Below, piece after piece: positions 1-7,374 of a stretch of DNA of 12,196 nucleotides. The notes under the pieces were generated by a model. It had not been told where the DNA came from and searched no databases. It saw only the letters and a program-made list of their open reading frames with translations. The translations under genes and the position numbers were made by a program. Position 1 is the stretch's first letter; each line of letters begins with the position of its first letter. The DNA is from Candidatus Latescibacterota bacterium (lineage in GTDB: Bacteria; JAAXHH01; JACQVL01), in assembly GCA_016209865.1 (NCBI GenBank), contig JACQVL010000308.1, forward strand, positions 1 to 12,196, given 5' to 3'.

Positions 1-227
1 CGGTGCGCGAACGACCGGACCTCAAACGCTCCGAGCGGCGCATCCCGTCCGGGCCACGCGACGGACGCGCCAGGAGGGGACAGGGCGATGATGGTGTAGA
101 CGACCGGGTCTCCGACCGTCATCCGGGGCCGGTCGACGCTGGCCGAGACCGACAGGGAATCCGTCTGGGCGTGGACGGTCACGGCGACGGTCACGACCAG
201 CCACAGGGCGCACACGGCAGATCGCAT
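1..227 (-). CDS. Secreted BatD-like protein, N-terminal fragment (runs off left edge)
   Basis: The reading frame opens with ATG at 227 and stays open to the window edge, giving about 75 residues without a stop. The N-terminus looks like a cleavable signal peptide: MRSAV, a hydrophobic run (CALWLVVTVAVTV), then HAQ, so the product is probably exported. The mature part begins with VSASVDRPRMTVGDPVVYTI, an immunoglobulin-like strand pattern (a VDR, then a GD turn, then alternating hydrophobics). It continues with VAWPGRDAPLGAFEVRSF. This resembles the start of BatD/oxygen-tolerance-type proteins, which often accompany MoxR and DUF58 genes. The ATG overlaps the stop of the upstream DUF4340 gene as TAATG, so translational coupling is likely; there is no strong separate ribosome site. 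The family call rests on a short N-terminus and on context. Most of the protein, including any C-terminal membrane anchor, lies outside the window. Confidence 0.6.
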   Translation of the reverse strand, partial: MRSAVCALWLVVTVAVTVHAQTDSLSVSASVDRPRMTVGDPVVYTIIALSPPGASVAWPGRDAPLGAFEVRSFAH

Positions 228-2020
228 TACGAAACCGGGGTGTTTCTTATCATGTAGGTCAGGACCTGAACGAACTTCGAGTCGACCAGATAGATTTCCG
301 GGCTGTCGCGGCGTTTGACGTACACCATCTTATTCGATGGGAACGGTTTCCCGACCAGGAGCGACAGGCGTTCCTCCGGGACGTCGCCCCGACCGCCGAT
401 CGTCAGGTGAACCTCCATCGAGGGTTTGTCCAGTCCAAACCGGGAGAGGTCTTTCGCCTCCTCATTCGTGACGAAGATCAGCGTCCTGAGGGTGTCGAGG
501 ACGGCAAACGCCTGTCCTACCGCGACCGCGTTCGCCTCTTTCCTGACCGGTTCCTCAAGCCGCCAGATCGTCTTCTGCTTCTGGTCACGGCGAACCCGGA
601 GCCGCTGGGCGCCCTGCACCACCTCAAAGACATTGACATCATAGCCCTTAAACCGGAGCACGCGTTTGTCACGGAGGTCGGCCGCCGTCGTGGGCAACTG
701 GTTGAAGACGGTTGCGTTCACGGCATAGATCCAGTTCTCCCGCGGGTTCTTCACGTAGATCGTCCGTCCCTGTTCGTCCGCCGTGCCGACGAGGATCTGT
801 TGGGGGAGTCGTTGATCTTCCACGTAACAGGTGACCGTGACCGGTGGCCGGTCGAGGCCGTACTGAGCCAGTTTGGCCGGGGTCGCCGGGATGAATTCTT
901 TGATCTTCATGATCTCCAGGCTGTCTAACAAGGCGGTAATCGCCCGATCATCCGCCCGCGTGTTCAGGGGGAACAGCATCTGCCAGTCTTCGAACGCTCG
1001 TTTCACGCAGGTCACCAGTTCGGGTCCGAGCTTCCAGTCAACCTTCGTGACTTTATACGACTGGAAATCGAACGCCGTCGTCTTGTGGAACTGCTGGGGG
1101 TTCTTGAGGAATTGCCCGGTGTTCTCCGCTGAGATGGCGTAAACGGTATTCCGTTCGTTACTCGTCACGTACACCTGAGCGCCGGCCCGCTGTCCGACCA
1201 GGATCGTGGCGTTGACCGAGCCGTCCCGTGATCGCAGGAGAGCCCGCGCGATCGGCCGGTGGAGGCCGTAGGGCTTGAGGTCGGGCGGATCATCCGCGAC
1301 GAAATCCATGGCTTTCAACCCGGCGAGCGCCCCGACTAAGTTGATCGCCTCATTCCGCTCTGCGGGCATGTCGACCGGTTTCGTGAGACGCCAGCTCCCC
1401 AGGGTGTCTCGTTCGCAGACGAGGGTCGTCACGCCCTTCGTGTCGTTGTACTCGACCTCGACCCGATCCACTTTGTCCTGTTGGACGTGGACGATGCGCC
1501 GGTCACGCAGCGCGCTGGTCGTCTTCCGGAGCGTGTTGCCGGTGCCGGTCTCGATCAGGAAAACTTTCCGGCTGCCTTTCGTGGCGGCGAACGTGGAGGA
1601 GCCGGTCGGGTTGTCTTCGCCCAGCAGAAGCGTCTGGGGGGCGGTCAGACCGGCGCTGACTTCGACGACGGCCTGCGGCGGGTCGAGGCCGTAGTCCGCC
1701 AGGTGAGCCGCGCTGTCGGTGACCGTGCGTGCCGGGGTGAGCGAGGCTATGGTATTGAGGATGTCAGTGACTGCCTGCGCGTCGGCGAGGACGGACAACG
1801 GCTCGACGATCCGCCAGCCTTCCTTCTGGTCGCGCTCGCAGACGGTCGTCTGTCCCTGATAGGTCACCTTCACCCGGGTGATCTTCGTCTGGTCGACGGC
1901 GAAGACTTTATTCGCGTCAGACTTTTGTTCGTTCGATTTGGCTTTCACCTCGAAGAAATAGAAGTACGAGGCGAGCGCGAGCAGGATCGCTCCAAGAATG
2001 GCCGTGTTCCGAAACCTCAC
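227..2020 (-). CDS. Membrane-anchored protein with four DUF4340 repeats
   Basis: This 597-residue protein has one N-terminal membrane segment (about residues 7-23, RNTAILGAILLALASYFYFF) and then a long soluble region, probably outside the cytoplasmic membrane. The soluble region contains four copies of a DUF4340-type unit, at roughly 46-175, 182-313, 319-453 and 456-597. Each has a beta strand with V-x-V near its start, a W-R/Q-hydrophobic turn (GWRIVEP, SWRLTKP, DWQMLFP, IWRLEEP), a [YF]GL-x-[RKP]P motif (residues 110, 251, 387 and 528) and an LLG/LVG strand. The start is GTG at 2020, preceded by GAGGAGGG about 5 nt upstream. It lies 16 nt after the GldG-like gene and overlaps the next gene as TAATG. 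DUF4340 genes commonly follow GldG-like ABC auxiliary genes, so a role as a partner of that complex is likely. The biochemical function is unknown. Confidence 0.85.
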   Translation of the reverse strand: MRFRNTAILGAILLALASYFYFFEVKAKSNEQKSDANKVFAVDQTKITRVKVTYQGQTTVCERDQKEGWRIVEPLSVLADAQAVTDILNTIASLTPARTVTDSAAHLADYGLDPPQAVVEVSAGLTAPQTLLLGEDNPTGSSTFAATKGSRKVFLIETGTGNTLRKTTSALRDRRIVHVQQDKVDRVEVEYNDTKGVTTLVCERDTLGSWRLTKPVDMPAERNEAINLVGALAGLKAMDFVADDPPDLKPYGLHRPIARALLRSRDGSVNATILVGQRAGAQVYVTSNERNTVYAISAENTGQFLKNPQQFHKTTAFDFQSYKVTKVDWKLGPELVTCVKRAFEDWQMLFPLNTRADDRAITALLDSLEIMKIKEFIPATPAKLAQYGLDRPPVTVTCYVEDQRLPQQILVGTADEQGRTIYVKNPRENWIYAVNATVFNQLPTTAADLRDKRVLRFKGYDVNVFEVVQGAQRLRVRRDQKQKTIWRLEEPVRKEANAVAVGQAFAVLDTLRTLIFVTNEEAKDLSRFGLDKPSMEVHLTIGGRGDVPEERLSLLVGKPFPSNKMVYVKRRDSPEIYLVDSKFVQVLTYMIRNTPVS

Positions 2021-6367: not shown

Positions 6368-7374
6368 GGCACTTCCACGTGGTCAAAGACCCGCCGGACG
6401 ACATCCTCCGGGGTGAGGTCTTCCGCCTCCGCCTCGTAGGTGACGATCACCCGGTGGCGGAGGACGTCCATCCCGATCGACTTGACGTCTTCCGGGGTGA
6501 CATAGCCGCGCCGTCTGAGGAACGCATGGGCTTTGGCCGCGGTCGCTAAGTAGATCGTCGCGCGCGGGGAGGCCCCGTATTCGATGAACCCCTTGAGGTC
6601 GGAGAGGCCGTACTCCTCCGGGGTGCGGGTGGCGAACACTAAGTCGATGATGTACCGCTTGATCTTCTCGTCGATGTAGACCTGGGTGACGACGGAGCGC
6701 GCCTGGATGATCGCGTCGGGCGAGACGACCCGGTCGACGGGGATCGGCTGGCCGGTCGTCATCCGGTTGAGGATGTGCAATTCCTCTGTTTTATTCGGGT
6801 AGGTGACGTTGATCTTGAGCATGAACCGGTCGACCTGGGCTTCCGGGAGGGGGTAGGTGCCCTCCTGCTCGATCGGGTTCTGGGTGGCTAAGACGAGGAA
6901 CGGATCGTCTAACAGGAACGTCTGGTCGCCGATCGTCACCTGGCGTTCCTGCATCGCTTCGAGGAGGGCGCTCTGGACTTTGGCGGGCGCGCGGTTGATC
7001 TCGTCCGCTAAGATGATGTTGGCGAAGATCGGGCCTTTCTTCGGGGTAAATTCCCCGCGGGCGGCGTTGTAGATCATCGTGCCCGTCAGGTCGGCCGGGA
7101 GGAGGTCGGGGGTGAACTGGATGCGCTGGAAGCGGGCCTGAACCGTGGCGGCCAGCGTCTTCACCGCTAACGTCTTGGCCAGGCCGGGCACCCCTTCGAG
7201 CAGGATATGTCCGTTCGCCAGGAGGCCGATCAGCAGCCGCTCGAGCATGTACTGCTGGCCGACGATGACCTTGCCGGATTCCGCTAACAACCGTTCGACG
7301 AACGCGCTCTGTTCATAAATCTTCTCATGAATCGCGCGAAGAGCATCAGGGCCGATCGGTTGTTCCGTGGCCAT
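6364..7374 (-). CDS. MoxR-family AAA+ ATPase
   Basis: This 336-residue cytoplasmic AAA+ ATPase belongs to the MoxR family, thought to act as chaperone-like remodelling ATPases working with VWA-domain partners. Walker A is GVPGLAKT (61-68), Walker B is LADEINR (122-128), sensor 1 is ATQNP (163-167) followed by EQEGTYPLPEAQVDRF, and the sensor-2 region is GASPRA (267-272). The family length is about 320-340 residues, so it is complete. I chose the ATG at 7374 (MATEQPIG). An upstream in-frame extension exists, but it lies inside the preceding zinc-ribbon gene and has no MoxR similarity. The ATG sits 2 nt after that gene's TGA, with GGAG somewhat far upstream, so coupling probably drives initiation. 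The downstream DUF58 gene overlaps it by 4 nt; the pair is a classical MoxR-DUF58 module. Confidence 0.93.
   Translation of the reverse strand: MATEQPIGPDALRAIHEKIYEQSAFVERLLAESGKVIVGQQYMLERLLIGLLANGHILLEGVPGLAKTLAVKTLAATVQARFQRIQFTPDLLPADLTGTMIYNAARGEFTPKKGPIFANIILADEINRAPAKVQSALLEAMQERQVTIGDQTFLLDDPFLVLATQNPIEQEGTYPLPEAQVDRFMLKINVTYPNKTEELHILNRMTTGQPIPVDRVVSPDAIIQARSVVTQVYIDEKIKRYIIDLVFATRTPEEYGLSDLKGFIEYGASPRATIYLATAAKAHAFLRRRGYVTPEDVKSIGMDVLRHRVIVTYEAEAEDLTPEDVVRRVFDHVEVP

Follow-up and report, generated by a model that had tools for sequence, protein, structure and literature searches.

A Gld-type ABC cassette joined to Bat operon genes in Candidatus Latescibacterota and its recurrence in other bacterial lineages

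Bat operons, named for Bacteroides aerotolerance, encode MoxR, DUF58, BatA, BatB, BatC, and BatD. In the stretch of DNA analyzed here (the window; 12,196 bases, a complete contig), the first two of these genes are followed on the same strand by an ABC ATPase, an ABC-2 permease, a GldG-like protein, and a DUF4340 protein, a combination that an original prediction made from the sequence alone took to be a single envelope machine and the best candidate in this stretch for an undescribed system. This locus raises the question of whether the junction between the Bat genes and the Gld-type cassette is a matter of chance, of shared neighborhood, or of shared function.

Gene content and organization of the window

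All main genes of the window lie on the minus strand. In the direction of transcription, the end of a radical-SAM-like protein is followed by a DegP-like protease, GroES, GroEL, an FmdB-type zinc ribbon, and MoxR, and then by DUF58, the ABC ATPase, the ABC-2 permease, GldG, DUF4340, and an exported protein gene cut by the contig end. The central genes had Pfam matches well above the cut-off, as did the zinc ribbon and the DegP-like protease; the names of GroES and GroEL come from sequence and from homologs in relatives, and the radical-SAM-like end, which had no match in Pfam, was labeled by inspection only. The original prediction had placed the run from MoxR onward at 1–7374 on the minus strand, which was correct, and each gene it named was confirmed by Pfam, with the last gene requiring the revision given below. 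The overlaps it described are likewise real on direct reading: GTGA at MoxR/DUF58, ATGA at ABC ATPase/permease, and TAATG at DUF4340/last gene.

The MoxR-family AAA+ ATPase (AAA_3 plus lid; 6364..7374, minus strand; Pfam AAA_3/MoxR 1.1e-65) carries the Walker A motif GVPGLAKT and is 76–80% identical among relatives. It adjoins, on the same strand and as in Bat operons, a DUF58 von Willebrand A (vWA) protein (5489..6367, minus strand; Pfam 8e-89) with an intact MIDAS (DTSAS at 84, GTD at 158, SDF at 182); the DxSxS part was kept in every locus read, and the T and D parts are present in the window as well. Hydropathy predicted no membrane segment in either protein.

The cassette opens with a GldA-type ABC ATPase (4413..5363, minus strand; Pfam ABC_tran 5e-27) in which Walker A, the signature, Walker B, and the H-loop are all present, the signature LSKGYRQR being identical to that quoted for Flavobacterium johnsoniae GldA (PMC9127263). 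The GldF-type ABC-2 permease (3643..4416, minus strand; Pfam ABC2_membrane_2 6e-13; alignment A1) has about six transmembrane segments by hydropathy, and the GldG-type protein (ABC_transp_aux; 2037..3638, minus strand; Pfam 5e-29 plus DUF7088; alignment A2) has hydrophobic segments at its N- and C-terminal ends. Weak profile matches of GldG to the PDB (E 0.003–0.1), to thioredoxins at residues ∼100–204 and to IFT52 at ∼243–323, weakly suggest a thioredoxin-like N-terminal part (DUF7088) and a GIFT-type domain similar to that of IFT52, in line with the naming of the GIFT domain after GldG and IFT52; sugar binding has been proposed for this domain (PMC7226087).

The DUF4340 protein (227..2020, minus strand; Pfam 5.9e-83 over four stretches) was modeled by AlphaFold2 (pLDDT 84) as a single N-terminal membrane helix with four tandem beta-rich repeats. 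No sequence relatives of it were found in the PDB, and the candidate fold match, 4q0y, was confined to a single domain (residues 457–597; Z 6.0 over 113 residues) and below trust level, too weak for a fold name to be claimed. One DUF4340 gene has been reported as essential in Verrucomicrobium spinosum (PMC12283558).

The last gene (1..227, minus strand) runs for only its first 75 codons before the contig end, beginning with a signal-like helix and a BatD-like N-terminus, and was originally described as a BatD-like exported protein. However, its intact orthologs in two relatives (L032 and L038), at 329–357 residues, belong to DUF4381 (PF14316) and not to BatD PF13584, two families that share a region cross-matching in the profiles used; the gene is thus the start of a DUF4381-type Bat protein. 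The remainder of the gene was not found in the window’s own incomplete draft, barring a weak match on contig C28. In both L032 and L038, the DUF4381 gene is followed by two BatA-type vWA genes (BatA and BatB), then a TPR gene (BatC), with a true BatD farther on (Pfam on L038), and these genes are clustered in both relatives, whereas the window itself ends before them. Genes for aspartokinase, homoserine dehydrogenase, and aspartate-semialdehyde dehydrogenase, named by inspection, lie between BatC and BatD in these two lineages of the phylum (L038:14654-18278; L032:14495-18052). Because the relatives run on into BatA-BatB-BatC, the window almost certainly shows the leading half of a Bat operon that also houses a Gld-type ABC cassette, an assessment that concerns gene content; the original prediction recognized the genes present, but these make up only that half of the locus.

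A promoter-like element between DUF58 and the ABC ATPase

Only one sizeable gap interrupts the MoxR-to-Bat run: DUF58 and the ABC ATPase gene are 125 bp apart (5364-5488). An element of the form CTTGC[AGT]T-N-TA[ACT]ATT was present in this gap in 12 of 15 phylum loci, mostly near kin, with the window, L032, and L045 diverged; in the window it reads CTTGCGT-N-TATATT (5451..5478, minus strand). The window, L032, L038, and L045 each contain a single copy of it, and its frequency by chance was 1.3e-4 per shuffled gap, a figure flattered by the post hoc definition of the motif. A generic sigma-70 scan did not list the element, and its first hexamer, TTGC[AGT]T, departs from the generic sigma-70 pattern. 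The conserved site suggests that the MoxR-to-Bat run is probably two transcription units; the cassette is probably cotranscribed with the DUF4381 and Bat genes, and only in part with MoxR-DUF58. The proposal of one strand-consistent run thus holds for strand and order, but the run is interrupted by this gap.

Conservation of the locus within the phylum

The order and strand of the genes GroES-GroEL-FmdB-MoxR-DUF58-ABC-permease-GldG-DUF4340-exported gene were the same in every genome of the phylum as far as contigs permitted, which argues that the junction is not accidental. When genomes were scanned with the permease alignment, matches came from the window’s own phylum only. The public labels of contigs from this one small phylum (L052-L061) are inconsistent, variously Latescibacterota, Gemmatimonadetes, and Zixiibacteriota. 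The GroES-GroEL-FmdB genes (7377-9731 in the window) immediately precede MoxR across the phylum, and in another family two genomes (L172, L176) also have GroEL next to a Gld cassette.

A second Gld-type cassette is present in the phylum (L047:9292-14350; also L048, L050, and L051). In L047, it consists of an ABC ATPase, a permease-GldG fusion of 905 residues, and a shorter DUF4340, with neither MoxR nor DUF58 nearby; the fusion is evidence that the permease and GldG work as one complex.

Linkage of Bat genes and Gld cassettes in other lineages

The wider survey covered 288 genomes, including 272 from outside the phylum; DUF58 was found in 205 of the 288 and PF09822 in 186. Of 100 GldG loci in other lineages, 97 had a permease and 92 had DUF4340 (a same-strand neighbor in 88), so ABC-permease-GldG-DUF4340 is one unit, a near-fixed standing cassette that is usually away from MoxR; MoxR and DUF58 lay within ∼9 kb of GldG at only five of the 100 loci. 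This sample was ranked by PF09822 score, which disfavors the closest kin of the window’s GldG, and it understated linkage because the linked members score low with PF09822. Linkage was thus recounted from alignment A2 matches and DUF58 positions.

Among the matches listed, 93 genomes outside the phylum had both families, and in nine of them, representing eight families, the cassette and DUF58 shared a strand and were no more than 12 kb apart, against 0.47 genomes expected under random placement in a 3.3-Mb genome (Poisson P ∼2e-9). In a tenth genome (G101), the linkage is split by a contig end (L209, L210) and the same gene order is implied. The original prediction regarded rare adjacency in related genomes as a sign of chance; the joining of MoxR-DUF58 to the Gld cassette proved to be universal in the phylum and, among the matches listed, to recur well above random expectation outside it, with the proviso that the majority of Gld cassettes stand alone.

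Bat genes were present in all nine linked genomes, in several arrangements. The cassette lay between DUF58 and the DUF4381/BatD-like gene in L171, L205, and L202/L203, as in the window’s phylum, between DUF4381 and BatA in L187 and L191, and after DUF4381 in L161, where BatA was not seen within reach; alternatively, it preceded MoxR (L189, L204) or followed the Bat genes (L206). Most Gld cassettes are found apart from Bat genes, and many Bat operons have no cassette nearby (L208, L215-L217). Over the 272 genomes, 140 had both GldG and DUF58, 30 had GldG only, 49 had DUF58 only, and 53 had neither (odds ratio 5.0, P 5.5e-9, with genome size and kinship ignored).

An extra exported-looking gene of 300–400 residues with a TPR-like start lies directly 3′ of DUF58 in other Bat operons (L171:5538-6767; L187:13288-14250; L202:10018-10956; L204:13064-13981; L215:8010-8936) and is absent from the window’s phylum.

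History of the junction

Phylogenetic analysis of 107 GldG proteins placed the linked members in clusters but not in one group. In a careful tree built for the relevant clade, 12 of the 13 linked rows lay within a 19-row group (support 97/88), the GldG of L205 fell outside that group on a very long branch, and the linked sequences formed a single group in none of 200 bootstrap trees; additionally, the GldG of L206 (L113 in the 107-protein tree) belonged to a distant clade. With most linked rows in one clade, few independent joins are indicated (the main clade, L205, and L206), and the history is most simply read as a single major joining, followed later by separation or reshuffling, with perhaps one or two additional joinings; in the linkage counts themselves, gains are indistinguishable from losses.

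Relation to known systems

As gene sets, Bat operons and GldAFG are both known, and the joining of a full cassette to a full Bat operon in bacteria is absent from the open-license literature searched, in which no description of a Bat linkage to GldG-DUF4340 was found. Relatives of the window carry MoxR, DUF58, DUF4381, BatA, BatB, BatC, and BatD in the order of the Bat operon, but with the GldAFG-DUF4340 cassette inserted between DUF58 and DUF4381 and the three amino-acid biosynthesis genes between BatC and BatD. As in Flavobacterium GldA/GldF/GldG, an ABC ATPase with the same signature, an ABC-2 permease, and a PF09822 protein occur together; however, the window cassette adds DUF4340 and adjoins Bat genes.

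Closer to the junction itself is the archaeal complex predicted from comparative genomics by Makarova and colleagues in 2015, in which arCOG01314 (DUF4350, GldG-like) is associated with MoxR and vWA proteins and a role in secretion or membrane remodeling is proposed (PMC5898192). Both systems encode a GldG-like extracytoplasmic protein with MoxR and vWA, but in the text consulted an ABC ATPase/permease and DUF4340 are not named (PMC5898192), and the window’s GldG contains a full PF09822 domain with only a sub-threshold DUF4350 match (24.9 bits vs. the Pfam cut-off of 30.4). The claim of an undescribed system is thus upheld for the junction, which is real, and weakened otherwise, as the cassette is widespread, the other genes are those of an ordinary Bat operon, and the archaeal prediction came earlier.

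A possible mechanism and its alternatives

The reading preferred here, that the locus is a Bat front half with a Gld cassette forming an envelope complex assembled or remodeled by MoxR-DUF58, is, taken whole, about evenly balanced between right and wrong, and its mechanistic part falls a little short of an even prospect. The ABC ATPase, permease, GldG, and DUF4340 would form one inner-membrane complex in which cytosolic ATP hydrolysis moves the permease, while the outward-facing GldG GIFT domain and the four DUF4340 repeats would carry some constituent of the envelope or act on it; a glycan or glycolipid is the probable substrate, a guess drawn solely from the published proposal of sugar binding by GIFT domains (PMC7226087). 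MoxR and DUF58, both predicted to be cytosolic, may pair as AAA+ and vWA partners to assemble or remodel the membrane complex, by analogy with NorQ-NorD, in which the vWA MIDAS is thought to bind the membrane client cNOR and the AAA+ ring to drive remodeling (PMC9976466). As there, a MoxR AAA+ protein is encoded with a MIDAS-intact vWA partner beside membrane-complex genes, although in the window that partner is DUF58 and not NorD. The Bat vWA and TPR proteins would be the membrane part of the same apparatus. We infer the union of Bat proteins and cassette in a single machine from these associations, and the promoter-like site between MoxR-DUF58 and the cassette counts against it.

A serious competitor, to which we give a somewhat better than one-in-three chance, is that two separate envelope modules share a neighborhood, and perhaps regulation, with clustering reflecting a common requirement during the same envelope stress. 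Either module often occurs alone, the promoter-like site separates DUF58 from the ABC gene, and GroESL and FmdB just upstream hint at a stress-gene neighborhood; additionally, bat deletions in Leptospira biflexa had no growth, morphology, or oxidative phenotype, changed only the product of a neighboring gene, HtpG, and left a role in aerotolerance unsupported there (PMC3557215). Separate modules are, however, less easily reconciled with the recurrence of the cassette inside the Bat order (DUF58/DUF4381 or DUF4381/BatA) and with the strong genome co-occurrence of both families.

The broader form of the preferred reading, in which many bacteria possess one undescribed envelope machine made of two halves, the Bat apparatus and the GldAFG-DUF4340 transporter, is rather unlikely; the transporter would then be the Bat client, and MoxR-vWA proteins would set the assembly or activity of the ABC-driven GIFT/DUF4340 complex. 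Much less probable is that Bat genes and cassette came together by chance and were retained through shared ancestry in the phylum, for although linked members cluster in the GldG phylogeny, the linkage was found in nine other genomes, among the matches listed, and the linked proteins never formed one group in the bootstrap trees. Least probable of all is an accessory role in gliding motility or type IX secretion, as for Flavobacterium GldAFG, suggested by the shared ATPase signature and GldG family membership and rejected because, besides the DUF4340 accompanying nearly all surveyed GldG loci and the absence of other gld or spr genes from view, GldM was found in none of 15 phylum genomes (the window’s draft 83% and nine relatives at least 90% complete), in agreement with the original statement that no gliding genes are in view.

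Bat operons and GldG-DUF4340 cassettes are both widespread. Their linkage reveals no new function but makes the question of the Bat client testable, as the recurrent link points to a specific candidate client for the Bat MoxR-vWA proteins, along with sets of genomes in which this hypothesis may be tested.
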